Virus record (IMG/VR): IMGVR_UViG_3300021964_000346
Location: 1 to 29,499 of that record
Length of the DNA: 29,499 bases
Source: a virus
Direction: 5' to 3' (one strand)
The notes under the pieces are model-generated. The model was given only the letters and a program-made list of their open reading frames with translations. It made no database searches and was not told the origin of the DNA. Below are positions 737 to 27,769 of the stretch, in pieces. Position numbers and translations under genes: made by a program. Within the stretch, counting starts at the first letter, position 1; each line of letters opens with the position of its first letter.

Positions 737-1810
737 TTAATAGCCAGTTTGGTAACGTAAAGTTACGAGTGACTCTGGACGAAGGATCTTACGACCATAC
801 AGGTGCATACCACGAACGATGTCAGCAAAGCTGTCTGGATCACGGTAAGTTTCAGTCTTGTTGATCTGCTGAGCAGTAGCAACCGCTGAATCGTGACCAG
901 CTACGATTACACCGTAGTTAGTGTCCTGTGGAGTCGTAGATGCGACAGCAGGGCCTGTACCTACAGAAGGAAGGTTATTAGAAACATATACACGGAAGCC
1001 GTGCAAGTTGTTAATAACAAGACCATTCTGGAGTCCACCAGTTTGTCCACCGAAGTCAGAGTTGAACAAGTTAGATTGCTCGTCCTTCAAAGTCTCCATG
1101 AAGACAGGGTCAATGACCAACCAACGACCGCTAGTATCAACAAACTGCTGATCCAACAAACGGCTCATGCGAGCAATCGCTTGGATTGGAGAAACAGAAG
1201 CGGCTGAAATAGCATTCGCACCCGGTAAACGTGGAACGATGTCTACAGCTTTACCTGCGCCATTGTCTGTAACGCCGAAGTCAGTTGAGTCTAACTTCAT
1301 AGAAGCCAACAACTCATCAGTACCAGCAGTTGCGACAGCAACAGTACCGTTTACTTGATCGTTAACAGTGCCAGCGGCTGTGTGCAGTGAAGACTGCTTG
1401 TAGCCAGCGAGGTAGCCAAGGACTTCTTGGTCATACTGGTCACGTAGGCGATACGCCGCACGATCAGTAGCCATTTGCATGAAGTTCACATGTGAATGTG
1501 CTTCTTCAATGTCGTCCATCTTGAAAGCAAAGTAGTTAGCTTTGTCGATGTTCAGAGTGAAATCTTCGTCGTCAAGATTCTGCGCAGTGATCTGTGATCC
1601 ACGAGCATATGACTGGACTGAAATTTCAGGCTCTTTGATGATCTTCACTGAATCACCCATCTGAGCGATTTCACCGAAGTAATCGTTGTTAGTGATATCT
1701 TCTACAGTAGAAGACTTACGGAAAGCAAGCTGTACCTGCTTTGAGTAGATTACGGGGCTAAAGTTACCATTAGGTAGGTTACCGTAGCCCGCCGCACTTG
1801 TAAATGCCAT
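737..1810 (-). CDS. Major capsid protein (357 aa)
   Basis: The length, the N-terminal segment on FSPVIYSKQVQLAFRKSS and the later LRDQYDQEVLGYLAG and RWLVIDP parts fit major capsid proteins of podoviruses (HK97 fold). It would form the icosahedral shell. The start at 1810 is preceded by AAGGAG at a good distance. The gene follows the scaffold gene but is separated from it by a 281-bp leader with its own promoters, which fits a need for high expression. The C-terminal part (MHLYGRKILRPESLVTLRYQ) is typical of phage capsid proteins. Confidence is high for the role, lower for the exact subfamily. Confidence 0.88.
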   Translation of the reverse strand: MAFTSAAGYGNLPNGNFSPVIYSKQVQLAFRKSSTVEDITNNDYFGEIAQMGDSVKIIKEPEISVQSYARGSQITAQNLDDEDFTLNIDKANYFAFKMDDIEEAHSHVNFMQMATDRAAYRLRDQYDQEVLGYLAGYKQSSLHTAAGTVNDQVNGTVAVATAGTDELLASMKLDSTDFGVTDNGAGKAVDIVPRLPGANAISAASVSPIQAIARMSRLLDQQFVDTSGRWLVIDPVFMETLKDEQSNLFNSDFGGQTGGLQNGLVINNLHGFRVYVSNNLPSVGTGPAVASTTPQDTNYGVIVAGHDSAVATAQQINKTETYRDPDSFADIVRGMHLYGRKILRPESLVTLRYQTGY

Positions 1811-1959
1811 GATGACATCTCCTTGGTTGCTTGGGGTTAAGGTTATGTGTAACTTCGCAAGAGGCCATCTAGCATCAGGGTGGTAAGCTCACCGGCCAAA
1901 GTGAACATACGGCCTGCGTAGTTTGGGTGTTCTGTGAAGGTGGAATTAGGATTCGTGTC

Positions 1960-1989
1960 ATTATAAGAACTGGCAGGAACTTATAACAA
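1960..1989 (-). promoter_or_regulatory. Candidate promoter P2 of the capsid gene
   Basis: On the minus strand, TTGTTA (1989-1984) is separated by 18 bp from a perfect TATAAT (1965-1960). The predicted transcript would begin near 1953 and run into the capsid gene at 1810. The element overlaps an inverted repeat at 1961-1986. Confidence 0.5.
1961..1986. promoter_or_regulatory. Inverted repeat over capsid promoter P2 (possible operator)
   Basis: TTATAAG (1961-1967) and CTTATAA (1980-1986) form a perfect 7-bp inverted repeat with a 12-bp spacer. The arms cover the -10 box and part of the -35 box of P2, a classical place for a repressor or activator site. It may also be partly a by-product of A/T-rich promoter sequence. 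Confidence 0.4.
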
Positions 1990-2059
1990 CACGCTTCCAT
2001 ACTCCTGTATTACTGCGGGTGTCCTTGCGGAGGCCGCATATTAATGTTTTGTGGACATA

Positions 2060-2087
2060 GTTATATCCAGAAAATATTATTTGTCAA
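2060..2087 (-). promoter_or_regulatory. Promoter P1 of the capsid gene (TTGACA-16-TATAAC)
   Basis: On the minus strand, TTGACA (2087-2082) is separated by 16 bp from TATAAC (2065-2060), followed directly by TATGT. The same arrangement recurs at 12353-12326 and, without the TATGT, at 12585-12558. Transcription would begin near 2053 and give an untranslated leader of about 243 nt. That leader contains a small TGCGG-CCT-CCGCA hairpin and no convincing long gene. Confidence 0.65.
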
Positions 2088-2091
2088 CACT

Positions 2092-2985
2092 TTATCGTGC
2101 TGAACCAGATAAATCGTAAATGAATTTACCTGAGCGCATAGCTTCTGCAATGGCATCAGCATTCTTTTCATACTGTTGAGCAGTCATACGGTTAACATCT
2201 GACTCCTTAATGTATGATTTAGTTTCATCGCTCTCAGGAGAGGAACGCTCAGAACGTGTACCAATCGCCTTAGCCGCATCCTTGTTACTAGATGACTTAG
2301 CTTTTGCTGTGATACCCATGTCTGCTTTGTACAAATCAATTGCACGTGCGGCAGATACTGCATCACTATCGTTATCATACAGCGCATCCATTACCCACTT
2401 AGGTTGCTCCTCAACCCAGTTATGGAATTCATCGCTGTCACGAATCTCATCAAAGTCCGGATGCAACCGCATGAGTTCAGCTTCCGCTTTCTCTTTCTGT
2501 GCTTCCTGCTTCATCTCATCAATTTGTCTGAACTTAGATTCAAACTCAGAGGCTTGTTCCTTAGCTTTCTTCATTGCGATTGTTTCTACAATCTGAGCAA
2601 CATCAGGATACTTCTCCATCCAAGAAGCTAGTTCTTCCTCTGACTTTGGGTACTTAATTTCTTTCTTGGTCGACGCTTCTAACTGCGCTTTAAGATCATC
2701 AATTTGTTGTTGAAAGTCTGATTCTTTCTTTTGAGCATGTCTACGAAGATCACCGTATCGTTTCTTAAACGTCCTTTCTTCAGCAGAATCAGGTTCAGGG
2801 CCATCCTCTACTTGTTCTTCTTGTAGTTCGCTAGATTCTTCTTCTTGCTGTTGTCCTTTCAGCAAAGCCTCTAACTCGGCTTCCTCTTCTTCAATACGCT
2901 TTTTATTAGCGTTACGCTTTGCAAAGCCAGATGCGACTTTTACTTGTTCGACTTTTTCAGTCATTTCAGTTGTAGTTGTTGACAT
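2092..2985 (-). CDS. Capsid scaffold (assembly) protein (297 aa)
   Basis: The protein is extremely rich in Glu, Lys, Gln and Asp and is predicted to be mostly helical with coiled coils around residues 30-60 and 85-175. It has no Cys, no membrane segment and a flexible Ser/Lys-rich region near residues 225-260. Such composition and its place between portal-side genes and the capsid gene are typical of scaffolds, which guide shell assembly and then leave. The start at 2985 follows AAAGGA. The role is inferred from these features, not from a sequence signature. Confidence 0.8.
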   Translation of the reverse strand: MSTTTTEMTEKVEQVKVASGFAKRNANKKRIEEEEAELEALLKGQQQEEESSELQEEQVEDGPEPDSAEERTFKKRYGDLRRHAQKKESDFQQQIDDLKAQLEASTKKEIKYPKSEEELASWMEKYPDVAQIVETIAMKKAKEQASEFESKFRQIDEMKQEAQKEKAEAELMRLHPDFDEIRDSDEFHNWVEEQPKWVMDALYDNDSDAVSAARAIDLYKADMGITAKAKSSSNKDAAKAIGTRSERSSPESDETKSYIKESDVNRMTAQQYEKNADAIAEAMRSGKFIYDLSGSAR

Positions 2986-3052
2986 GTTTTTTCCTTTATG
3001 TCTGGGGCTAACGGTAGCTTTTTAGGGCGTTAGGTTTGCCAGTTTAGTGGAC

Positions 3053-5248
3053 TTATTTTTTAGAAGCAAGCCCACCTCGCTTCATGTTGGGTTTGCGTTT
3101 AGCCTTTACTTTTGGTGAGGCTAAGCCGCCCTTGCTGAATGGTCCGGAGAGTCCTCCTCCTTGTCCTCCTACTGTTCCTCCTCCTACGTCTTGAGCGGAG
3201 TCCCCTCCTGCTCTGTCTGAAGAATCGTACCCACCGGAATAGCTAGGTCCACCGGGAGAGTAAGCACTTGCCTCATCCATTGCGGCTTGCCTCTCAAGGT
3301 CTTCTCTTTCCTGTTTGCTTTTAGATAAAGCCAAAGCTCGTTGATATGCCGCACCGGGTACATTGGGAGATAAATCGGCTGTTGGTGATATTCTAGATAC
3401 TTCAGGGGTTGCAAACGATCTCGCACCGATGTTGTAATCATCGTAAAATTTACCGCCTATAGGAGCAGAGGAAAGTTTTCCAGTAGTTATTCCAGATTCT
3501 TTTCTCAGTGCGTCTCCTGTATATTTAACGCTGTAGTCATCAACTGGAATACCATTGACAAATCTTTGCTCAGGAGCGGTCGGTGCAGTCGGCGCAGTTC
3601 CTGCTACAGTAGGATCTCTGCCAGCATAAAAGTCCGCACGATCTTTCTCTGAGTCAAACAGACCAAAGTCTTGCTCTGATAACATTGCTGTTTGTGCAGA
3701 TCCGGGAGTTAATCCAATTGAGTACGTGCCACTCTCATCATTAAATTCAGTGCTGAAGATATCAGTAGTTTGTTTTTCAAACGAAGCAAGATCTGTATCT
3801 GGAGACACTTCAGAGAAAGCACGACTAGATGTTGTAGCTAACGCCGCCGCAAGGGCTGGAGAGGCACCTGCCTTAGTAGCATTTGTAAAAGTCTCTTGTA
3901 CCGCTTTTTCTGTAAATCTATCGGAGCTTAGCTTTCCTGCGTCTGTAATTATGTTAGTGGCGGCAGATCCTAAGTCCTCCATTAATGCGGCACTTAATTT
4001 ATCATTTAGTTCTTGGGCCGCTTTATTATACTTGTATCCTGTGTAAACTGCTCCAACAATACTTAATGGTCCGCCGCCGAACAAGAGGCCAGCCATGCTA
4101 AGAGCCATGCTTTTTTGGAATTTGTCATCCAGTACTTCAATTTCTTTTACAAGGCTGGCAACTTTTCCGTCTGGTTTAGCTTCGGCTACAGACTTAGCGA
4201 TACCGGAAACAGGGTCTACCTTAGCAGAAGGCATGTCGTCAGGACCATCCCCGTCGCCCCCCTGTTCAGTTACCTTTGCAGTAGGAACGCCAGTTTTAGC
4301 CTCTGGTATTTTAGAAGGGTCGTATAAAGCAAATCCTTCTGGGATAGGATTAACAGGCTCGCCGTTAACGAAAGTGAAGTTGCGAATCTCTCCATTTGGC
4401 CCTATGTATTGTTTAACTTCATAGGTGGGGATGCCCCCCGGTCCTTGGCCCGGAGTAATGACAGGTGCTTTAGGTAGGTCAATTGCTGTTCCCGGAGGTG
4501 ATACACCCGGTGGCAAGAAACCTAGACCCCCAGTCATCTGGGAGTAAATTTGACCGGCCTGTTGTTCTGGGGTGGTAGGCTGTCCCGCTAATCCACCGAC
4601 TTGGAACTCAGCTACTTCATCATCTTTATCTAAGTCTTCAATAAAGGAATCAATGTCGGAATCAAAATCTGTTTCATCATCCATGGTAGCTTCTTCAGAG
4701 TTACCCATCTGTCCCATAGCATCCATCTTAGCCAGACCTTCTTTCGCCATGTCTCGCATCTTCATGATGTTCTCAAGGCCGATGTATCTTACGACATCTG
4801 CGGGAAGTACAAATTCACCTTCACTAAGTTTAGCGTCAATGTCATCACGGACTTCTTCTTTAAGTGCTCCATTAGGTACATCATTGCCGGATACTAGATC
4901 GACTGAACCACCTTCGTCTTTCAGTCCGCCCATTTCAAACATATCCATTTGTGACTCCATGCTACCGCCTCTATCTAATAACTTTGGACTACGTGCCTTT
5001 GCGGCTTCAATTGCCTCTTCCATGGAATCGTGCACACTCGTAGCTTCAATTTTATTGTCCTTGAGCATATCTATGATTTCATCTTCAGAATACTGAACGC
5101 CATCATGAATAGATGGGATGTTTATAAACTTTGTTCCCATTGGAATTGTCACAGATTTCTCTGACACTAATTCCCCTTCAGGCGTTTTGAACACGGGTCG
5201 TCCCGCTCCACTGATCTGTCCCGTTGGTACTCCGACTTTTTCAGCCAT
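3053..5248 (-). CDS. Large virion-associated protein of unknown function (731 aa)
   Basis: Residues 18-91 resemble a short module found in many phage proteins (IPMGTKFINIPSIHDG, then an HDSMEEAIEAAKARS helix). Residues 116-187 form a second module known to me from marine phages, with SGNDVP, EEVRDDI, LSEGEFVLPADVVRYIG and MGQMGNS. An acidic linker (188-215), a Pro/Gly-rich stretch and a hydrophobic segment at about 381-403 follow; the C-terminus is Gly-rich and then strongly basic with two KGGLA/RGGLA motifs. The gene lies between portal-side genes and the scaffold, and its ATG overlaps the upstream stop by 8 nt after a GAGG site. An internal virion or DNA-ejection role is possible but unproven. 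Confidence 0.7.
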   Translation of the reverse strand: MAEKVGVPTGQISGAGRPVFKTPEGELVSEKSVTIPMGTKFINIPSIHDGVQYSEDEIIDMLKDNKIEATSVHDSMEEAIEAAKARSPKLLDRGGSMESQMDMFEMGGLKDEGGSVDLVSGNDVPNGALKEEVRDDIDAKLSEGEFVLPADVVRYIGLENIMKMRDMAKEGLAKMDAMGQMGNSEEATMDDETDFDSDIDSFIEDLDKDDEVAEFQVGGLAGQPTTPEQQAGQIYSQMTGGLGFLPPGVSPPGTAIDLPKAPVITPGQGPGGIPTYEVKQYIGPNGEIRNFTFVNGEPVNPIPEGFALYDPSKIPEAKTGVPTAKVTEQGGDGDGPDDMPSAKVDPVSGIAKSVAEAKPDGKVASLVKEIEVLDDKFQKSMALSMAGLLFGGGPLSIVGAVYTGYKYNKAAQELNDKLSAALMEDLGSAATNIITDAGKLSSDRFTEKAVQETFTNATKAGASPALAAALATTSSRAFSEVSPDTDLASFEKQTTDIFSTEFNDESGTYSIGLTPGSAQTAMLSEQDFGLFDSEKDRADFYAGRDPTVAGTAPTAPTAPEQRFVNGIPVDDYSVKYTGDALRKESGITTGKLSSAPIGGKFYDDYNIGARSFATPEVSRISPTADLSPNVPGAAYQRALALSKSKQEREDLERQAAMDEASAYSPGGPSYSGGYDSSDRAGGDSAQDVGGGTVGGQGGGLSGPFSKGGLASPKVKAKRKPNMKRGGLASKK

Positions 5249-5483
5249 TGGCTAAAGCCTCGTCTCTCAAATATTTAAGTGAGCGCAGGATTTGTATTGC
5301 ACCCTGTGCTTGGTGAATAGATACTATGTTATCTGATTGCTCTAGTTTTTTATGTTGTTCAGATATCATGATGTCCAAATACTCAGTGTATGCATCCCAC
5401 TGCCTATTGTTACTGCATAGGGGCTTGAGCTTGCTGACCACCTTCTGGCGATGGTTGCTGTCCTGCTGACTGCTGTTGTTCAT
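5241..5483 (-). CDS. Small conserved protein overlapping the portal gene (80 aa)
   Basis: I do not recognise a named family. The body (WDAYTEYLDIMISEQHKKLE, then IHQAQGAIQILRSLKYLRDE) is helical and resembles short proteins that often lie beside the portal gene in podoviruses. I place the start at the ATG at 5483, after AGGA; an in-frame upstream codon at 5525 would only add portal-overlapping residues. The first 74 nt lie inside the 3' end of the portal gene in another frame, and the stop overlaps the next ATG. The function is unknown. Confidence 0.65.
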   Translation of the reverse strand: MNNSSQQDSNHRQKVVSKLKPLCSNNRQWDAYTEYLDIMISEQHKKLEQSDNIVSIHQAQGAIQILRSLKYLRDEALANG

Positions 5484-7548
5484 TTCCTGTGAATCCTTGT
5501 TCGCCCGGTACTGGGGCTTGTCCAATGCCTATGTTGCCACCGCCTGTTCCTGCGGTATCCGCTACTCCCGGTACGCCTTGTGCCTGTGGAGGAGCAGGTG
5601 GAGCATTCTGTTGTAAGATCTGAGCCTGTAACATTGCTTCGCTCATATCGTTAGTTACCTTGTCTGGATCAAGATCCATTGACTTAGCAATCTCACGAAC
5701 GATGTATGGGAACTTAGCGAACGGTGCAAGTGAAGGATTAGATGCAACTTGTAAGAACTGCATCAAGCGTTGGCTACGAACTTCATTCGCCATGAGTGAT
5801 TCAGTACCACGTGCCTTGATTTCTAAGTCGCCTTTAATCTCAGCATCAAAGTCAAACTGCATATTGAATGAGAACATTGCCTTACCAATAGGAGCCAGCA
5901 AGTAATCATCAACATTCTTAATGACAGTCTTGATGCCACCAGATGCGGCATTCATCAACATAGAGATACCAGATGCTGTGCGGCCTACGCCTGACACACC
6001 TGTCTGTCCATGAGCGAATGATGGGAAGCCTGTTGACTCATCGGCAAGTACACGTGCCTTGTCAAACAACTGCATGTTCTCATTAGATACATTCGGGAAC
6101 TTCGTACCGAAGATAGCTTGACCCGGTGCACCGCCTTGACGACGGAATACTTTACCCGGATACACTGAGAGATCTTGACCGGGCACTAGGTTTGTCTCAT
6201 CAATCTCGATGAGCAAGTTCCCTGACAAGACTGCATTGTCCACAGCCATGCGCATGAAACCGTTCATCAGTGTTTGGGTATCGTCCATGTTTTCAGCGAT
6301 ACCTACACCGAAGAATGAGTATGGATTTAACTCATACGGTACAGCATAGTATGGAATGCGGGCAGGCTTAAACGGATTCAATACTGCACGTAACACACGG
6401 CCATTGCAGTACCAGATATTTGCTTGTACTTCATCTAGGTCAGACATATCGTCTGGGATATCTACGCCAGCTTCCTTGAGGATTTCACTGTCGATAGTTC
6501 CCCAGTACTCAAGTACTTCAAAACGATCAATGTCATAATCAGTCTGATAATCACGGAGGTCATCTTCCCAGTACTTCTTAACGTAACCTTCACCCATGTC
6601 GATGACTTCATTGATTACATTAGACCGGAAGAAAGGACGCTTCTTCAGTGACCGCAGTTGTGAACGTGACATCTTATGTCTTTCAACTACATACTGTGCT
6701 TCATCCATATTAGAAGCATCTGGGTCAGGGAAGAAGTTCCATACAGAAACATGGGAGGTCGAGGGGACCGTTTTAATGACTGGATTGTATCCCCCTTCCT
6801 CATCCCAATTCGGATACTCTTTGTCTATAGCAAATGGTCCCTTCATGATACCTGTTCCGAAGAGTGCCATCTCAAAGGCAGTAGAGCGTAATTGTTTAGA
6901 TGCGTGTGCTTCTTCAAGCTGATCGTGGATCTTCTTTTGCATCTTCTTTGCGGCAACCATCGCAGGATGGAATGTCACAGATGATGGTGTAGTACCTTGT
7001 CCTGATGTCAATCCCTCAACATCTTCAAGCTTATCTTGTAATGGGCCAAGGCCATTCTGAGTTAATGATGTAAGTGTCGCACCCGGAGGTAAGTCATTAC
7101 CGTCACCCGCAAAACCATATGGAGAGATAGGCGCACCCATCTGCTTATCCATTTGATTTTTCTGTGGATCAAAGCTAACTGCTTCTTCTACACCTTCAGG
7201 TAATCGTGTTGGTTCTACAGTGAGAGGGAAAGCATTGTTAGCAAAGAGTACGTCAATGATCTGACCATAAGCCGCTAGTGTCTTTGTCTTAGTAACCTTA
7301 ATGAATACACGAGACTTCTCAGCGGAAGTGAACTGTACGTCCGGTCCATAGATGCCACGGTAGTTACGATACGCTTGTAACCAACGATCCTCATCCTGAC
7401 GGCGGGTGTCTTCTGCCTTACGGTAACGCTCCATTACGTAGCGAACAAGATTAGATATCTCTGTATCTTCTGTCGTCTTCTCAGGCAAATCATCCAGTGT
7501 GATCTGGACTTCACCTGATTCAAAAATATCTTCGTCTTTATCAGCCAT
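5410..7548 (-). CDS. Portal protein (712 aa)
   Basis: This is the dodecameric ring through which DNA enters and leaves the head. The length, position directly after the large terminase and the motifs RQDEDRWLQAYRNYRG (about 49-64), a VIKTVPSTSHVSVWNFFPDP segment, ending near residue 277, and a later VPYELNPYSFFGVGIAENM segment fit P22-like portals of podoviruses. The last roughly 65 residues are Pro, Gln and Gly-rich and probably disordered; the next gene starts within them. The ATG at 7548 lies 5 nt after the terminase stop without a strong ribosome binding site, so coupling is likely. Confidence 0.88.
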   Translation of the reverse strand: MADKDEDIFESGEVQITLDDLPEKTTEDTEISNLVRYVMERYRKAEDTRRQDEDRWLQAYRNYRGIYGPDVQFTSAEKSRVFIKVTKTKTLAAYGQIIDVLFANNAFPLTVEPTRLPEGVEEAVSFDPQKNQMDKQMGAPISPYGFAGDGNDLPPGATLTSLTQNGLGPLQDKLEDVEGLTSGQGTTPSSVTFHPAMVAAKKMQKKIHDQLEEAHASKQLRSTAFEMALFGTGIMKGPFAIDKEYPNWDEEGGYNPVIKTVPSTSHVSVWNFFPDPDASNMDEAQYVVERHKMSRSQLRSLKKRPFFRSNVINEVIDMGEGYVKKYWEDDLRDYQTDYDIDRFEVLEYWGTIDSEILKEAGVDIPDDMSDLDEVQANIWYCNGRVLRAVLNPFKPARIPYYAVPYELNPYSFFGVGIAENMDDTQTLMNGFMRMAVDNAVLSGNLLIEIDETNLVPGQDLSVYPGKVFRRQGGAPGQAIFGTKFPNVSNENMQLFDKARVLADESTGFPSFAHGQTGVSGVGRTASGISMLMNAASGGIKTVIKNVDDYLLAPIGKAMFSFNMQFDFDAEIKGDLEIKARGTESLMANEVRSQRLMQFLQVASNPSLAPFAKFPYIVREIAKSMDLDPDKVTNDMSEAMLQAQILQQNAPPAPPQAQGVPGVADTAGTGGGNIGIGQAPVPGEQGFTGNEQQQSAGQQPSPEGGQQAQAPMQ

Positions 7549-7553
7549 GGTTT

Positions 7554-9164
7554 CTAATATCCAAATTTAGAGTCTGAGGGTACATATGATGATGGGCTTT
7601 GATGTGTTGGGTCAAAGTCCCAAATAGAGAAACGTGGTCTGGACATGATGCCATAACGCAATGCGTCATACAGGTGGTCTTCAGACTTCGTATCAATATC
7701 TTCTGGATTCTTTTTGTCCAGTGGGATAATCGGTAGTTGTGCAATCAAATTAGTACACGTGTTAAAAAATATCAGTCGGGGTTCTTCTGTGTACTCATCA
7801 ACTTGTAGTCTACGGTGCATCTCATTCTTACCTGATACACGAGAACCTGCTGATCTATCTGAAGGTCTCCAGCGGCATCCCTTCTGTATCATCTGTTCAG
7901 CTAGCGATGGACCTGTGTCCCCACGCTTATGCCAGCACGAACTATCTAACACCCCGTACTTGAGATTGCCATCGCCCGCTTCAAGTTCAAGCACCATATC
8001 TGCGAGATCAGTTGCCAAGACTTTACTAACGTATAACTCACGATAGACAATAAGCTGTTCATCAGGAGAACAGGCAATCCATACAACAGCAGAATAAGAA
8101 CCGTACCCATAATCGCAGGCCCTAAACTTAACCCAATTATGAGGTATGTCAAAAGGATCAACAACATGTACTTGTCTGTTGAACTCAGGAAACGCCGCAC
8201 CTTCTGCAACATCCCAATTACCCTCTAGTAACTGTTTACGTTGATGCTCAGGTAAAGACAAGAGCATCGCCTCATAGTCCCCAGCATCATACAGGTGTGG
8301 GTTATCAACTAGCATTGCAGGTATAAACTTACGTTTAAACAATGCTTGGCCTTCTTTGGAATGGCCCTTCGGATAAGCTAAGGTCTTACCACTTTCAATA
8401 TCTGTTGCGTTAAATGCACTGCCGGGTGGAGAAGGATCAATAAACATCTTCTTCACCCAAGCATGTCCCGGTCCACCGGGGTTAGTAGTAGCTCGCATAT
8501 AGACCGGTAGATCAGGTGCTGTACTACGCAAACGAGATCTCATGTAGTCCCACGCAAATGGCGTATGCCACTGTGTCAATTCGTCGAATCCAATCCAACT
8601 AAACGCCTGTCCTTGGTAACGTAATACGTCATCGTCCCTGTCGAGGTACGAGAACCATAGCCTAGCTCCACTAGGTGCAGTCCATTGCATCTTACGCTCT
8701 GACCATTTAATACCGGGCCAGATCTTCGGATACATCTCCTGAGACTTCCAAACGAGTTCTCTTAGTTCCTCATTCGTATGTCGTAGTAGCAGTCCACTGA
8801 AAGAGGGATGACCCATAAATCGTAACGGGTCAGCCAACATTGCATAAGACTTACCACCGCCTGCGGCACCTCCATACAGAACCTCCCGTTCCCCTGCGGC
8901 CAAGAACTCTGTCTGTGGACCAGCGTTAGGCTTAAATATTACATTGTATTCTTCTTCAGGGCGTATCGGCTCAAACTCATCTGGAGCTTGAGGATCTTCC
9001 TTTACTTCAATGTTCGGCTGTGTCTGGGTCTGGCTCTTCGCTGATCCTCGACTTCCTTGCGCCGAGCCTCGACCTTTCGAGGGTTTCCGCTTTGGAGATT
9101 GCCGTTTCGTACCTTCTGGCCCATTCACGGAGAGTAGAAGCTTTTCTTTTGTGGGATTGCTCAC
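7554..9164 (-). CDS. terL: Terminase large subunit (536 aa)
   Basis: This is the ATP-driven DNA-packaging motor and nuclease. A Walker A motif GGAAGGGKS lies at residues 98-106 and a Walker B ending in FDE at 193-195. The C-terminal nuclease acids are visible as D351 (ACDYG), D407 (VLDSS) and D496 or D500 (EDHLYDAL). The first 53 residues are a basic, Ser/Gln-rich tail and overlap the upstream gene by 158 nt. The start used here is a GTG at 9164 without a clear ribosome binding site; no in-frame ATG exists before the Walker A motif, so the true start is uncertain and may depend on coupling. Confidence 0.92.
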   Translation of the reverse strand: MSNPTKEKLLLSVNGPEGTKRQSPKRKPSKGRGSAQGSRGSAKSQTQTQPNIEVKEDPQAPDEFEPIRPEEEYNVIFKPNAGPQTEFLAAGEREVLYGGAAGGGKSYAMLADPLRFMGHPSFSGLLLRHTNEELRELVWKSQEMYPKIWPGIKWSERKMQWTAPSGARLWFSYLDRDDDVLRYQGQAFSWIGFDELTQWHTPFAWDYMRSRLRSTAPDLPVYMRATTNPGGPGHAWVKKMFIDPSPPGSAFNATDIESGKTLAYPKGHSKEGQALFKRKFIPAMLVDNPHLYDAGDYEAMLLSLPEHQRKQLLEGNWDVAEGAAFPEFNRQVHVVDPFDIPHNWVKFRACDYGYGSYSAVVWIACSPDEQLIVYRELYVSKVLATDLADMVLELEAGDGNLKYGVLDSSCWHKRGDTGPSLAEQMIQKGCRWRPSDRSAGSRVSGKNEMHRRLQVDEYTEEPRLIFFNTCTNLIAQLPIIPLDKKNPEDIDTKSEDHLYDALRYGIMSRPRFSIWDFDPTHQSPSSYVPSDSKFGY

Positions 9165-19458: not shown

Positions 19459-19650
19459 ATGTATCACACTCGCCCTATCAAAACATATGACATGATCACT
19501 GCACTGACAGATCGTGTCACTAAAAGTTTGTCGTACCAAAACGAGGAGTACGATGACGTGCTCAGTAACGTAAGCCCGGAAGCACGTAAAGAATTTCTGA
19601 AGGCTCTGATCAAATTCAATGAGACATTTCTGGAGGGACGAGATGGGTAA
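19459..19650 (+). CDS. Small unknown protein before the integrase (63 aa)
   Basis: GAGG precedes the ATG by 7 nt. The product is charged and helical (MITALTDRVTKSLSYQNEEY, then PEARKEFLKALIKFNETFLE). It overlaps the integrase start by 8 nt. It has the size of an excisionase, but no such motif was seen. Confidence 0.64.
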   Translation: MYHTRPIKTYDMITALTDRVTKSLSYQNEEYDDVLSNVSPEARKEFLKALIKFNETFLEGRDG

Positions 19651-20530
19651 GCGCATCAAAGAAACATTCAATGAGCTTGTAGATTTATATAAAGGTTCTA
19701 ATGAATTCAAGGACTTACAGCCAACAACTCGACAGCAGTACACGTATTGGTTGCGTCTCGCATCGGAGGCATTGCCTTCTGATGTTGGGTACAAAGAGAT
19801 CACTGGTGCGATTGCTAACAAAACATTTGAGACTATTGATGAGGGCAAGGGCACAGTGCTAGCCAATCGTGTGCTCGCTGTGTGTCGTAGGTTGTACAGC
19901 TACGCTATCCGTATGGATGTGATCGACACCAACCCATGGCGTAAGGTGAAGACTAAGCGTGAGGAATCCCGTCGAGTTCTTTGGACACGCAGTCAAGTGT
20001 CCAGTTTCTTGGACGTTGCGTACTCCGATTGGAACACCCGATCAGTAGGGCTGATTGCACAGATGTGTTACGAGTGGTGCCAGCGTGTGGGTGACATGCG
20101 TACCCTGACATGGGATGCCATTCACTTTGAGGATAAGTACGTCAAGCTTGTTCAGTCTAAGCGTAGGGCACAAGTCAAGGTACCGATCAGTGAGAACCTA
20201 TTGTCCATGCTCACTGAGCAGAATGGTGCGCTAGACTTTCAGGATTATGTTGCACCTAATGTTGTAGATAACATGAAGCCATTCAACATGTACCGTATCT
20301 CCGGATGGGTGAACAAGATCAAGAAGAAGGCAGGCTTACCTGATGACCTACGTCTTGCAGACTTACGCAGGACAGGTACAACCGAGATGGTTGAGGCAGG
20401 GGTACCCTTACCACAAATCATGGCGGTGACAGGGCACAGCACACCTGCTAGTGTCACACCCTACATGAAAAATAGTTTGACAAGTGCGACTGAGGCGTGT
20501 ACGCTCCGCTCTGTCTACACCGGCAAGTGA
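19643..20530 (+). CDS. int: Tyrosine recombinase / integrase (295 aa)
   Basis: The enzyme would cut and rejoin DNA at specific sites through a tyrosine. An N-terminal core-binding domain (1-105) is followed by the catalytic domain. Visible residues are R148 (CQRVGD), K173 (QSKRR), R242 (ADLRRTGTT), H265 (TGHST) and the nucleophile Y274 (TPYMK). The usual His of the HxLR motif is Ala at 239. GGAGGG precedes the ATG at 19643. It lies at the entry to the replication module; no attachment site could be identified. It may support lysogeny or resolve replicated genomes. Confidence 0.9.
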   Translation: MGKRIKETFNELVDLYKGSNEFKDLQPTTRQQYTYWLRLASEALPSDVGYKEITGAIANKTFETIDEGKGTVLANRVLAVCRRLYSYAIRMDVIDTNPWRKVKTKREESRRVLWTRSQVSSFLDVAYSDWNTRSVGLIAQMCYEWCQRVGDMRTLTWDAIHFEDKYVKLVQSKRRAQVKVPISENLLSMLTEQNGALDFQDYVAPNVVDNMKPFNMYRISGWVNKIKKKAGLPDDLRLADLRRTGTTEMVEAGVPLPQIMAVTGHSTPASVTPYMKNSLTSATEACTLRSVYTGK

Positions 20531-20549
20531 AACATTAGAGGTTGAGACA

Positions 20550-20609
20550 ATGATAATTGAGATAGTAATAGTAATCATTGCATACGAAATACTATGGCAG
20601 GTAATGTGA
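20550..20609 (+). CDS. Possible 19-residue hydrophobic peptide
   Basis: The short frame reads MIIEIVIVIIAYEILWQVM, a single hydrophobic helix, and ends 1 nt before the primase ATG. A GAGG lies about 9 nt upstream. It fills the only gap between integrase and primase. It may be a real membrane peptide or a leader for primase coupling. Confidence 0.35.
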   Translation: MIIEIVIVIIAYEILWQVM

Positions 20610-20610
20610 T

Positions 20611-21405
20611 ATGTCTAAGATCAGTGACTTCATCGACACGTTAGATTTATATGTCGATCAGACGTACAGAGGCAACTGCCCCATCTGTTATGGCAAGAAC
20701 ACATTCACAGTTACACGTGACCACAGTAATGTTATCTACAATTGCTACAAGAATAGCTGTGGCATTTCAGGTAAGCGCAGGCAACTGTTACATGCTGATG
20801 AGATCATTGCCCTACACCAGAGAGAAGATGCCCCTGAGAGCTATTCTGAGCAGGATCTATGTACCTATACAGTGCCTGCCTTTATGGTCCCCTACACAGA
20901 GGTGTATGCCCCCATAGATCCTACGTTTTTAGATAGGTATGGCATTGACCCACACACTGTGCGCTATGATGTCAGGCAGGACAGGCTAGTGTTTCTTGTC
21001 TACACTAAGCAGGGACTACTTGTTGATGCAGTAGGCAGAGCATTGACCAAGCGCATTCAACCCAAGTGGATACGATATGCGGCATCCCCTGTGCCATACA
21101 CCAATGGAGATTCTAGTAAGTACGCAGTGATTGTTGAGGATGCAATCAGCGCATATGTTGTAGGTGAAATGTTCGGTGACATCTGTACTGGCGTAGCTCT
21201 GCTTGGCACACAGCTAACAGATTTTCACAAGCGGTATATACAAAAGCATTATGACAATGCTATCGTGGCACTCGATCCCGATGCACGAGACAAGACCATC
21301 AAGATTGCAAGGGAGTTAAACTGTAAGGCATTGAACCTTACTGATGACTTGAAGTACAAACGAACTGAAGACTTAGATAAGTTAGCGGAGATGTTATATG
21401 CATAG
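20611..21405 (+). CDS. DNA primase with zinc finger and TOPRIM fold (264 aa)
   Basis: It would make RNA primers for lagging-strand synthesis. The zinc-binding domain uses C23 and C26 (CPIC) with C45 and C50. The TOPRIM acids are visible in VIVEDAISAY (E176, D177) and VALDPDARDKT (D222, D224). Unlike T7 gene 4 the helicase is not fused; it is a separate gene at 23589. The length is short for a full primase but usual for such phages. Its end overlaps the next gene by 8 nt. Confidence 0.85.
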   Translation: MSKISDFIDTLDLYVDQTYRGNCPICYGKNTFTVTRDHSNVIYNCYKNSCGISGKRRQLLHADEIIALHQREDAPESYSEQDLCTYTVPAFMVPYTEVYAPIDPTFLDRYGIDPHTVRYDVRQDRLVFLVYTKQGLLVDAVGRALTKRIQPKWIRYAASPVPYTNGDSSKYAVIVEDAISAYVVGEMFGDICTGVALLGTQLTDFHKRYIQKHYDNAIVALDPDARDKTIKIARELNCKALNLTDDLKYKRTEDLDKLAEMLYA

Positions 21406-23477: not shown

Positions 23478-23623
23478 TGCCTAGAAAGAAGAATAGCCCT
23501 GCGTACGGGAAGGGCGATTGGAAGCGTCCCGTAGACGAGAAGAAGTTCGCTGAGAACTATGATCGTATTTTTAATAAGGGAGAGAAGAATGAAACCGGAA
23601 CTAATACAACTCCTCCTAAGTAA
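23477..23623 (+). CDS. Small basic protein before the helicase (48 aa)
   Basis: This short gene reads MPRKKNSPAYGKGDWKRPVD, EKKFAENYDRIFNKGEKNET and a Thr/Pro tail. Its ATG overlaps the previous stop, and its last 35 nt overlap the helicase start. The position suggests a helicase partner or loader, an inference only. Confidence 0.66.
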   Translation: MPRKKNSPAYGKGDWKRPVDEKKFAENYDRIFNKGEKNETGTNTTPPK

Positions 23624-24815
23624 GGAGTTCTTTACTAACAACAGGCATCGTATCCGTGCTTCCATGTTTGAGGACACGGATTACCTGCCAGTCTACAAAA
23701 GTATTATACGAGCACATGAGAAGTCAGAAGATGGAGACATTACTGTCCAAGATGTGGCTGCGCTGTACGACGTGGATAACCCCACGGAGAGCCGTTCAAA
23801 GAAAGAAAACGTACGTATACTATTACGTGAGTTGGCGGATAGGCCACCGCTATCGCTTGACGTTGCTGAAGAAGTACTCCAACAATCATGGCGGACTGAG
23901 ATCGGTAGGGATATTGCTCACCTCGGATCACAGATAGTCAATGGTGAAGTACAAGACCTAGTACCTCTCAAGCGACTTATAGAAAAGACACAAGACGACT
24001 TCATGCCTAACATAGAAGTCAAACCTTGTACTAAGGATGTCTTTGAACTACTCAGGGAAAACGAAGAGGATACCCGCTGGACGTTTAACGTACGAGCACT
24101 GCGGGACAAGCTTCCAGGGGTTGCCGGTGGAGAACTATGTATTATATTCGCAAGACCAGAAACAGGAAAGACTGCAAGCCACGTGTCCTTCTGCTACGGG
24201 CCAGACGGATTCGCAGAGCAAGGAGCCAGTGTCCACACCTTTGTGAACGAAGAGAAGGCAACACGGACGATGCTACGGGCCATGTCCGCATTCACCGGTA
24301 TTACTAAGGAAGAGATCTACGAAGACCCTAAGTTCGTCGCCAACGAATGGCGTACGATCTATGACAACGTCAACATGTATGACGCACAGGGTGTCACCAT
24401 TGAACAGATTGATGCCTACTGTGAAAACCATAAGCCAGACGTACTGGTTGTAGATCAGTTAGATAAAGTACAAGTGCATGGTAACTTCAGTCGTACAGAT
24501 GAGAAGCTACGTGAGATATACACACAAGCCCGTGAGATTGCTAAACGCCATGACCTTGCATTCATTGCAATCAGTCAGGCATCTGCAGACGCAGAGGGGA
24601 AGACACGGCTTAACCCATCCGAAATGGAAGGCAGTAAGACAGGTAAGTTCGCTGAGGCAGATATTATTATCGGTATCGGTAAGCATGATCAGTCAGGGGT
24701 AGATGATGAGCCAGACTACACTCGTCACCTTACAGTAGGAAAGAACAAGATCACGGGATGGCATGGCACCATTATTTGCGAAATACAACCAAAGCTATCT
24801 CGCTACGTTGATTGA
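23589..24815 (+). CDS. Replicative DNA helicase, DnaB/RecA-like (408 aa)
   Basis: It would unwind DNA at the fork as a hexamer. The RecA-like core starts near residue 165. Walker A is ARPETGKT (188-195), Walker B VLVVD (285-289), and a sensor-like AFIAISQASADAEGKTR follows. The first 150 residues are helical and may bind primase. GGGAGAG precedes the ATG at 23589, and the frame runs on upstream only as an overlap with the previous gene. Polymerase follows 10 nt behind. Confidence 0.87.
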   Translation: MKPELIQLLLSKEFFTNNRHRIRASMFEDTDYLPVYKSIIRAHEKSEDGDITVQDVAALYDVDNPTESRSKKENVRILLRELADRPPLSLDVAEEVLQQSWRTEIGRDIAHLGSQIVNGEVQDLVPLKRLIEKTQDDFMPNIEVKPCTKDVFELLRENEEDTRWTFNVRALRDKLPGVAGGELCIIFARPETGKTASHVSFCYGPDGFAEQGASVHTFVNEEKATRTMLRAMSAFTGITKEEIYEDPKFVANEWRTIYDNVNMYDAQGVTIEQIDAYCENHKPDVLVVDQLDKVQVHGNFSRTDEKLREIYTQAREIAKRHDLAFIAISQASADAEGKTRLNPSEMEGSKTGKFAEADIIIGIGKHDQSGVDDEPDYTRHLTVGKNKITGWHGTIICEIQPKLSRYVD

Positions 24816-24825
24816 TAGGTCCGAT

Positions 24826-26934
24826 ATGTATGTACTAGGAATAGACATTGAGACGACAGTACAGAAGGCTGAACGTGGTTTGGATGGTAGCCCCTTCAAT
24901 CCTAACAACCATCTAGTGTCTGTGGGTGCTCAGTTCTTACACGATGAAACAGGTGAGTACTTCTTCTTTAATCACAACAAAGTCGAGTGCAACCCAAAGG
25001 AAGCCCACTTCAAGCTACAGCAGATGATTGAGTTAGCAGATGTAATCGTAGCTCACAATGCTAAGTTTGATATCCTTTGGCTGCAGGAAACAGGATTCAA
25101 TATTGAGTGCGCTGTCTACTGCACAATGATTGGCGAGTACGTACTAGCCCGTGGGCAGAAGATGCCATTGTCGTTAGAAGAGACCGCCAAGCGCAGGAAG
25201 GTTACACTCAAGCGTTCTGACCTGATGGAAGAGACATTCAAGAAAGGGATCGGATACGAACAGATGGACCCAGAGATTGTAGAGACGTACGGACGGGGTG
25301 ACGTAATATCCTGTCTGGAAGTATACGAATCTCAGATGCATGACTACCGGCAACCTCACTTCACAGGGTTACGCAAAGTCAGGGACATGATGAACGAGAT
25401 GATGTTTGTCCTGTTGGAAATGGAACGGAACGGAATTTGCATTGATCTTGATTCACTGGACGATGTAGAGAAGGAATTCACTGAAGAGCGTAACAAATTA
25501 GAGACACGGCTACAGCAGATCGTTAGCACAGTTATGGGTGACACTCCCGTCAACCTGAACTCACCGGCACAGTTATCTGAAGTAGTCTACTCTCGGCGTG
25601 TACTGGACAAGAATAAGTGGCGTGAACTATTTAACGTAGGCATTGCCGCTAACGGCAAATCCTTGCCACGTCCACGTATGTCGCCTAAAGAGTTTGCGCT
25701 TGCAGTAAAGAACAACTCAACAATCCTCCACCGCACCAGAGGCGTACAATGTTCTGAGTGTAAAGGGGTGGGTACTGTCCAGAAGATCAAGAAGGACGGC
25801 AAGCCGTACAAGAATCGTAGCAAGTGTGTTACATGCAACGGTGTTGGGGCTGTCTATAAACCGACAGATAAGGTAGCAGGTTTCAAGCTGACACCTTCCT
25901 CTGTGCAGGATATATCTGCTAACGGCTTCAAGACAGAAAAGAACACCCTGCAGTTTTTACTGGCTCAAGCGCAACGTAAAGGCTCACAGGAGGCGATTGA
26001 GTTCCTACAAGGGATGCGTAGGCTCAACGCTCTAAACGTCTACCTGAACTCGTTCTGTGGCGGTATGAGGCGTAATACACGCAGTGATGGCGTACTGCAT
26101 ACGACTTTCAACCAATGCATTACTGCTACTGGACGCTTGTCTTCTTCTGATCCTAACTTCCAGAATCAACCACGCAGTGGGACATTCCCTATTCGTAAGT
26201 GTGTCGTATCACGCTTCGACGGTGGTGAGATTATGGAGGCTGACTTCAGCGGTCTAGAGTTTCGTGTAGCCGGTGAACTGTCTAAAGATGGTCAGATATA
26301 CAATGACATCATGACGGGTAAGGATGTACACAAGCAGACTGCTTCTATCATTAACCAGAAATCTTCTGAGGAGATTACTAAGGATGAGAGGCAACAGGCG
26401 AAGGCGTATACGTTTGCGCCGCTCTATGGCGGTCAGGGAGCGCAGGAGGCTCCACATGTTCAACAATACTTCAAAGAGTACTTCAACATCTACGAAGGAC
26501 TCGCAGAGTGGCACGACAGACTCAAAAGAGGAGTCCTAAGAAATGGTATAGTAACACTACCTTCTGGACGACAGTTCTACTGGCCTAACGTTGAACGTAA
26601 GCAGGGCGGTAGGATTTCGTACGCCACACAGATTGTAAACTACCCCGTACAATCTTTTGCAACTGCGGACATTGTTCCGTTGGCTTGTATACGTGTACAC
26701 GAAATGATGAAAAATCGACAGGTTAAATCGTTGTGTGTATTGACTGTACATGACTCCATCGTCATTGACGTGTATCCTGGAGAGCAGGAGATCATGAAAG
26801 ATATTCTTGCAGAAGGTATGGAAGGGGTTGCAATGGAAGTCAAAAAGAGGTTTAATTACGATATGGTAATACCACTCGCCATTGAAATAAAGAGTGGTTC
26901 AAATTGGCTAAATGGAAAAGTTATTTATGAGTGA
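24826..26934 (+). CDS. Family-A DNA polymerase with DnaJ-type zinc-finger insert (702 aa)
   Basis: It copies the phage genome and proofreads. The 3'-5' exonuclease motifs are D7/E9 (DIE), D82 (HNAKFD) and Y155/D159 (YGRGD). A zinc finger like the DnaJ central repeat is inserted at 309-345, with CSECKGVG and CVTCNGVG. Polymerase motif A has D473 (ADFSGLEFR), motif B R522, K526, F530 and Y534, and motif C H642-D643-S644. F530 matches E. coli Phe762. The ATG at 24826 is preferred because the exonuclease begins at once; an ATG at 24763 would add 21 residues from inside the helicase gene. The insert marks HMO-2011-type phages. Confidence 0.93.
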   Translation: MYVLGIDIETTVQKAERGLDGSPFNPNNHLVSVGAQFLHDETGEYFFFNHNKVECNPKEAHFKLQQMIELADVIVAHNAKFDILWLQETGFNIECAVYCTMIGEYVLARGQKMPLSLEETAKRRKVTLKRSDLMEETFKKGIGYEQMDPEIVETYGRGDVISCLEVYESQMHDYRQPHFTGLRKVRDMMNEMMFVLLEMERNGICIDLDSLDDVEKEFTEERNKLETRLQQIVSTVMGDTPVNLNSPAQLSEVVYSRRVLDKNKWRELFNVGIAANGKSLPRPRMSPKEFALAVKNNSTILHRTRGVQCSECKGVGTVQKIKKDGKPYKNRSKCVTCNGVGAVYKPTDKVAGFKLTPSSVQDISANGFKTEKNTLQFLLAQAQRKGSQEAIEFLQGMRRLNALNVYLNSFCGGMRRNTRSDGVLHTTFNQCITATGRLSSSDPNFQNQPRSGTFPIRKCVVSRFDGGEIMEADFSGLEFRVAGELSKDGQIYNDIMTGKDVHKQTASIINQKSSEEITKDERQQAKAYTFAPLYGGQGAQEAPHVQQYFKEYFNIYEGLAEWHDRLKRGVLRNGIVTLPSGRQFYWPNVERKQGGRISYATQIVNYPVQSFATADIVPLACIRVHEMMKNRQVKSLCVLTVHDSIVIDVYPGEQEIMKDILAEGMEGVAMEVKKRFNYDMVIPLAIEIKSGSNWLNGKVIYE

Positions 26935-27769
26935 AGTAGCACTTTATAATGGTATGACCCCAGAGCAACTATTGGCTGCGATGGGGGCAGGTGAACCTCA
27001 AGAAGCAACAGGCAATCGTCTGCCGTTGTTAAAGGTCAACTATCAGGATGAGGACGACGAGGGTAACACCTTGAAGAAGGGTTCTATCGTCTTGGCACTC
27101 CCGTCAGGTAACGTATACGGTACGTCTGTAAAGATCCGTGTGTTCGGTGATTACATGCAGTACATGGACTACGATGCCGCTGACAATGCTGTTGTCAATA
27201 AGACAATCATTCACCGTGCAGGTGATGAAGCGATTGACGAGACTGGTGGCGTACGTTGTGGTAAACCTGCGTCTAAAGACCTGCGTGATATGGATGACGA
27301 GGTCAAGGCAAAGTACAAGAGCATCTCTTGCTTCCGCTACCTGTTTGGTAAGGTAACAATGGAAGATGGCAAGACTGCATCTGGAGAAGCTACTGAGGTA
27401 GTTGAAGTCCCTTGTCTGTTCCGCCTGAAGGGTATGTCATTCATGTCGTTCTCTCAGGATGTGATTGAGCCTTCACGCAATCAGAAGCTCAAGTTCCAGC
27501 AAGTCACCAGTGCGATTAAGACAACCCGCCACAAGAACGGGTCTGTTACTTATTTCACTGTAGGCTTTGAGCCTGACTTCTCTAACATCACAGACATCTC
27601 AACGGATGATCTACAGTTTATGTCCAATGTACTGGACACAGTTAACGCTGAGAACAAGCAAGTCATTGCGAAGCACAACAGTGCATTGTATGGCAAGCAA
27701 GCAGACGTGCGTGACGAGAAGATCGTTTCTGAAGTCGAAGACTATTTAGAAATCGACGAGGCATCATAA
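26927..27769 (+). CDS. Probable single-stranded DNA-binding protein (280 aa)
   Basis: No family signature was recognised. The product is beta-rich with an acidic C-terminal tail (VSEVEDYLEIDEAS), as in T7 gp2.5-type proteins, where the tail contacts polymerase and helicase. It lies between polymerase and a RecB/Cas4-like nuclease, the usual place for such a protein. The ATG at 26927 overlaps the polymerase stop by 8 nt; its own stop overlaps the next ATG. The role is inferred from composition and position. Confidence 0.6.
   Translation: MSEVALYNGMTPEQLLAAMGAGEPQEATGNRLPLLKVNYQDEDDEGNTLKKGSIVLALPSGNVYGTSVKIRVFGDYMQYMDYDAADNAVVNKTIIHRAGDEAIDETGGVRCGKPASKDLRDMDDEVKAKYKSISCFRYLFGKVTMEDGKTASGEATEVVEVPCLFRLKGMSFMSFSQDVIEPSRNQKLKFQQVTSAIKTTRHKNGSVTYFTVGFEPDFSNITDISTDDLQFMSNVLDTVNAENKQVIAKHNSALYGKQADVRDEKIVSEVEDYLEIDEAS

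Follow-up and report, generated by a model that had tools for sequence, protein, structure and literature searches.

The family A DNA polymerase encoded by the virus record IMGVR_UViG_3300021964_000346 carries a DnaJ-like zinc insert, and its architecture and alignments place this insert almost certainly inside the thumb subdomain of the polymerase domain, at the thumb tip. The initial annotation of the window (the whole stretch of 29,499 nts that we analyze) put the insert between the exonuclease and polymerase cores, and papers on HMO-2011-type phages likewise describe it as lying between two domains. Alignments and a structure model locate it in the thumb instead. That HMO-2011-type phages have the insert is correct as annotated (PMC9038755, PMC6918029); these two papers and PMC8528129 report it and trace it to the publication of the HMO-2011 genome. 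It does not come up in PMC11348598 and PMC6302109, both about the diversity of phage DNA polymerases. In a search of the openly accessible literature, we found no report of a thumb placement, of a tree with the insert removed, of loci with a separate exonuclease, or of a gp32-like fold for the neighboring protein.

Position of the insert in the polymerase

The polymerase and the insert have the following coordinates.

24763..26934, plus strand: family A DNA polymerase with 3'-5' exonuclease, 723 aa (ORF, Pfam, relatives, AlphaFold2 model)
25603..25917, plus strand: insert of ~105 aa, almost certainly in the thumb, aa ~281-385 (alignments to Vibrio phage 1.209.O, StenR_269 and bacterial Pol I; end of the Klenow alignment)

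The Pfam match of the polymerase to PF00476 scores 216 bits against a cut-off of 34.3. The catalytic residues of the exonuclease (D28, E30, D103, D180) and of the polymerase (D494, R543, K547, F551, Y555, D664) are all present, and invariant or nearly so in a 72-sequence alignment; by sequence, this is an active-looking replicative family A polymerase. Because its relatives begin at M22, the true start is probably at 24826 rather than at 24763. An AlphaFold2 model of the whole protein, with the 72-sequence alignment as input, has a mean pLDDT of 89.5 and in a VIA comparison matches Bacillus Pol I with Z 35 and rmsd 2.6 over 548 residues. Outside the insert, the modeled fold is the usual one of a Pol I large fragment.

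The zinc motifs occupy the middle of the longer insert. Klenow aligns to the polymerase without a break as far as aa 279, and the alignment picks up again in the palm, at aa 442. The last aligned block before the insert, NLNSPAQLSEVVYSRR in the polymerase and NLSSTKQLQTILFEKQ in Klenow, is in a thumb helix, and the insert adjoins the segment corresponding to Klenow NLSSTKQL. Relative to Vibrio phage 1.209.O, StenR_269 and bacterial Pol I, there are ~105 extra residues between the thumb helix and GFKTEKNTL. We assign the insert to the thumb and not to a linker because these alignments place it after the thumb helix. The site holds on average 107 residues in the polymerases that carry the zinc motifs, versus 15-21 in an insert-free sister clade and 5-11 in bacterial Pol I. 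The thumb placement is further supported by five loci (L211, L226, L233, L236 and L243) in which the exonuclease has an ORF of its own and the insert is in that of the polymerase. Together with the alignments, these loci rule out the linker between exonuclease and polymerase as the position of the insert. The five are HMO-2011-type contigs, as in L211 (2261-4395), where the exonuclease and thumb-palm ORFs are apart and the zinc insert is in the second.

The polymerases of the Zobellviridae are also encoded by two ORFs, but the split is further downstream, before motif A. They have 48-53 residues at the thumb site, Cys-free and with no CXXC pairs; L041, L042 and L047 are examples of this insertion of ~50 residues. 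That the same site is enlarged in this family too suggests that it is prone to expansion.

Zinc motifs and their conservation

The two motifs named in the initial annotation are found in the polymerase, and its interval 25750-25863 corresponds to aa 330-367. The module that contains them is given here as seen in the model.

25729..25875, plus strand: putative zinc module, aa 323-371, with outer strands, two knuckles and an inner basic hairpin at 338-354 (DSSP of the model; loop charge)
25750..25773, plus strand: first CXXCXGXG motif, CSECKGVG, aa 330-337 (ORF translation, alignment)
25825..25848, plus strand: second CXXCXGXG motif, CVTCNGVG, aa 355-362 (ORF translation, alignment)

Scans of viral contigs, bacterial and archaeal genomes and cultured phages give 177 relatives with the site, and both CXXC pairs are kept in all of them; in this sampled set, no HMO-2011-type polymerase covers the site without having both. 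The two-CXXC unit is 29 residues long in 163/177 polymerases and 41 in the other 14, in which the inner hairpin is 12 residues longer. In the 72-sequence alignment, with a mean column identity of 51%, the four Cys as well as G346, G362 and G373 are invariant, and K343 is nearly so. For the double CXXC motif, this pattern of conservation excludes chance. The four Cys very probably form one putative Zn2+ site, judging from sequence and model together.

The module is also basic. Between the CXXC pairs, the net charge of the loop averages +5.7 (n = 177), and 98.9% of the loops have +3 or more; random stretches taken from the same proteins as a control average +0.2. The 50 residues that precede the loop have a net charge of +6.6. 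Since the thumb tips of insert-free relatives are also basic, the charge by itself does not call for a zinc arm.

The insert could instead be a mere structural spacer, or a relic without specific function. The helical lead before the zinc module (aa ~281-322) does vary by ~13 residues in length between subgroups, as a spacer might. Against it speak the four Cys, which never vary in the clade, the Gly and Lys, which hardly do, and a dN well below dS for the insert among close relatives; we hold this explanation to be extremely improbable.

The resemblance to DnaJ is limited to half of a domain. The Pfam DnaJ_CXXCXGXG family (PF00684) matches aa 327-366 with an E-value of 9.7e-5 and 23.0 bits, under the 32.7-bit cut-off, and it also matches 70 of the 72 aligned relatives at E<=0.1. 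The match covers positions 15-55 of the 65 in the profile, which together with the spacing fits the central pair of motifs. The Cys-rich domain of DnaJ (Hsp40) shares the CXXCXGXG knuckles and has four motifs; the polymerase arm has two, thus one putative zinc site and not two, and it is located inside a polymerase. There is no J-domain (PF00226) in the polymerase or elsewhere on the record. Searching solved structures by sequence with the insert alone retrieves just a weak match to DNAJA2 (E 0.23). In a tblastn search of annotated phages with the insert region, only HMO-2011-type polymerases rise above noise; we did not accept the weak matches (E 0.05-0.1) in Aeromonas phages, MR14 and LR756504.

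One could argue from this resemblance that the insert still works as a chaperone or in redox chemistry as DnaJ does, or that it brings in the host DnaK. DnaJ is needed in phage lambda replication, a link raised in PMC9038755, and a DnaJ-like zinc protein that has no J-domain can be a holding chaperone (PMC5818400). That protein, ZnJ2, does not cooperate with DnaK (PMC5818400), and the missing motifs, the score under the Pfam cut-off and the lack of a J-domain on the record all go against such a job, to which we attach hardly any probability. With half a zinc domain and no J-domain, the chaperone reading is ruled out as the main role, and for this insert the DnaJ name is misleading.

Modeled arm and origin of the insert

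In the AlphaFold2 model, the pLDDT within the insert is 88-95, except for aa 291-300 at 81. DSSP assigns two helices (283-290 and 308-317) and then two outer strands (323-329 and 363-371), with the two Cys-bearing knuckles on either side of the inner hairpin. From the secondary structure and the DnaJ pattern, we read the outer strands as probably pairing into a two-stranded stalk. A predicted fold and a polymerase phylogeny had been proposed as checks on the annotation, and neither gives a refuting outcome: the model shows knuckles with the four Cys, the zinc being putative, and the polymerase falls inside the zinc-bearing HMO-2011 clade.

For the phylogeny, we built a FastTree maximum-likelihood tree from core columns with the insert removed. 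All 86 zinc carriers (86/86) form one clade with support 1.0, sister to the insert-free clade of 1.209.O and StenR with support 0.998; the Zobellviridae are outside. The polymerase under study branches deep, next to the subgroup III isolates, within the clade that has all the HMO-2011-type isolates. The simplest reading of the tree is that the insert was gained once, with no detected loss. To say that it was never lost may be an overstatement, because the group is defined by the insert and the sample was gathered by similarity to polymerases that have it.

The polymerases of the HMO-2011-type phages (HMO-2011, CRP-1, CRP-2, CRP-3, CRP-207, CRP-212, CRP-235, CRP-345, CRP-603, CRP-738 and HTVC033P) are the same enzyme, at 37-52% identity, with the same insert, two CXXC(XGXG) motifs and neighbors. 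Vibrio phage 1.209.O, StenR_269, related contigs and the Zobellviridae (ICP2, MEP402, QDWS535) have a homologous exonuclease-polymerase, mostly followed by a small protein with an acidic tail; they differ in having no zinc motif, and either the short site of the sister clade or the Cys-free insertion of the Zobellviridae.

Group membership and an apparently mosaic genome

The insert was initially taken to place this genome in the HMO-2011 group. That placement stands, on other grounds as well. The published criteria for the group are a polymerase with the insert, the major capsid protein and the terminase large subunit (PMC9038755), and we find all three in the record, with the polymerase tree, capsid and terminase in agreement. 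Argued from the insert alone, the placement is partly circular, since the published definition of the group includes the insert. Replication and structural modules can also recombine in these phages (PMC8528129), and for both reasons we rest membership on the three criteria jointly. The same paper also places genomes that are at least 50% complete by whole-genome phylogenomics or shared genes; the record has 29.5 kb, versus 53-55 kb for the isolates. The relevant neighbors are as follows.

737..1810, minus strand: major capsid protein, group marker (72.9% over 99% to CRP-345; 72.5% to HMO-2011)
7554..9164, minus strand: terminase large subunit, group marker (75.5% over 100% to CRP-1; 76.8% to HMO-2011)
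20611..21405, plus strand: primase (Toprim-like), in the same replication module (Pfam/PHROG, relatives)
23559..24815, plus strand: DnaB-like helicase, directly upstream of the polymerase (Pfam/PHROG, relatives)
26912..27769, plus strand: SSB-like protein, directly downstream of the polymerase, with an acidic C-terminal tail; alternative start at 26927 (model, locus comparison)

The closest relatives change along the record. Capsid, portal, terminase large subunit, integrase and primase (737-9164 and 19619-21405) are closest to HMO-2011, CRP-1 and CRP-345, of subgroup I. Helicase, polymerase and the SSB-like gene (23559-27769) are closest to CRP-3, CRP-212, CRP-235 and CRP-738, of subgroup III. 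CRP-3 is named as subgroup III in PMC9038755; for the other isolates, the assignment to subgroup I or III is our reading of the tree and of the counts of cultured members in that paper. Compared to the isolates, then, this is a polymerase that branches deep near subgroup III on a contig with subgroup I-like structural genes. The sequences suggest a subgroup I/III mosaic that may have arisen by recombination between 21405 and 23559, with unequal rates as the alternative.

The tyrosine integrase (19619-20530) has its closest relative in HMO-2011, which makes a temperate lifestyle possible. HMO-2011-type polymerases also occur on short contigs in genome bins of Flavobacteriales, Neomarinimicrobiota, Euryarchaeota and others (L127-L136). 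Contigs of the same name and equal length appear in two bins (L127/L128 and L131/L132); this suggests that they are phage contigs put in the wrong bins and not prophages.

The SSB-like gene downstream of the polymerase

The description of the neighboring protein as SSB-like is supported by its predicted fold. The product of 26912-27769 has no Pfam or PHROG assignment, and a profile search with its family finds no sequence match in the PDB. The model has a pLDDT of 86. The best of the VIA matches listed are T4 gp32 (1gpc, Z 8.0, rmsd 4.0, 167 aligned) and further gp32 entries, 2a1k from RB69 (7.7), 8gme of gp32-Dda (7.0) and 2atq (6.8); a chain of the phiC31 recombination directionality factor in a synapse (9teh_I) matches equally well, with Z 7.9. 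After the gp32 entries, the scores fall to 4.5. Foldseek gives no match at E<=0.001 for the same model, and for this reason we call the predicted gp32 core fold likely, short of proven.

Wherever the flank is long enough, a gene of this SSB-like family comes after the zinc-insert polymerase, mostly directly and at most ~1 kb away, and the last 25 residues of these proteins have a mean net charge of -6.3 (n = 104). An alternative for the arm is that it is mainly a protein-docking site, whose basic hairpin would bind the acidic tail of the gp32-like SSB, or another part of the replisome, and so couple the polymerase to the SSB-coated template. A basic hairpin would suit protein docking equally. 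The thumb tip is also where a C. perfringens polymerase-SSB pair is predicted to meet and where T7 polymerase binds thioredoxin (PMC10061031), and the model of the SSB-like protein best matches gp32 of T4 and RB69. On the tree, moreover, the next gene belongs to a different SSB-like family where the insert is present. Acidic tails, however, are common among SSBs, and as a control most insert-free relatives also have an acidic-tailed gene after the polymerase, of a different, unrelated family; we detect no remote homology between the two downstream families. An acidic tail alone, therefore, does not predict docking on a zinc arm, and is ruled out as proof of it. The co-occurrence of insert and SSB type is that of one clade and counts as a single event. 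The helicase is ruled out as the acidic partner, since helicase tails are not acidic. We regard docking as the main rival reading, possible and rather unlikely as the principal role, and one that could hold alongside a grip on DNA.

A proposed role at the thumb tip

The role that we favor, short of an even chance, is that the basic arm at the thumb tip serves DNA grip and processivity. The four Cys would hold a single Zn2+ in the manner of one of the two DnaJ zinc sites, with the metal doing no more than stapling the hairpin into shape. The basic arm would extend the thumb along the newly made duplex, raising DNA affinity and processivity, and so would take the role of the T7 thioredoxin-binding loop without a recruited factor. 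In addition, the acidic tail of the neighboring gp32-like SSB may dock on the positive face of the arm. The thumb is an apt site for such a role because E. coli Pol I with a truncated thumb is less processive and has a lower fidelity (Minnick 1996, as cited by PMC10061031), and because T7 polymerase binds its processivity factor thioredoxin via the thumb (PMC10061031). We find no thioredoxin-family gene on the record, a 29.5-kb fragment.

The thioredoxin-binding domain of T7 DNA polymerase, which we take to be residues 258-333, is, like the zinc arm, a large basic stretch inserted at the thumb tip of a family A polymerase from a phage. It differs in having no zinc and in using host thioredoxin as its partner. 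The T7 insertion precedes the motif FNPSSRDHI (from residue 334), while the zinc insert follows the equivalent NLNSPAQL; being on opposite sides of the same motif, the two are not the same insertion. We made this comparison by motif anchors because the automatic T7 alignment mis-registers inside the insert. The PolA-SSB pairs of mobile elements (Rice 2023, PMC10061031) likewise combine a family A polymerase with an OB-fold SSB, and for one of them contact at the thumb tip is predicted. They are putative primases of Bacillota elements, and the accessible part of that paper describes no zinc arm in them.

Another reading is that the arm acts on the template while it is single-stranded, or on the displaced strand, in the course of strand displacement or of lesion bypass. 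In favor of this, the arm is basic and its tip tolerates the 12-residue extension of the 14 longer sequences. The thumb position better suits the duplex product side than the template or a displaced strand, and a DnaB-like helicase next door leaves less need for strand displacement; we consider this use very unlikely.

Placing the insert in the thumb, as part of the proposed DNA-gripping arm, shifts the question from why a polymerase should contain a piece of a chaperone to how the enzyme holds DNA. If the arm does give processivity without a separate factor, it would also be of interest for enzymes used in DNA amplification. HMO-2011-type phages are reported to be dominant and broadly distributed in the oceans (PMC9038755). 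A wider picture, unlikely to hold in full, is that the arm is a self-contained processivity module on the thumb, with the gp32-like SSB of the phage itself as its partner in place of a recruited factor of the thioredoxin kind. It would then be an independent answer to the processivity problem of family A replicases, and it would have been gained once, along with the change of SSB type, at the base of this abundant group of ocean phages.
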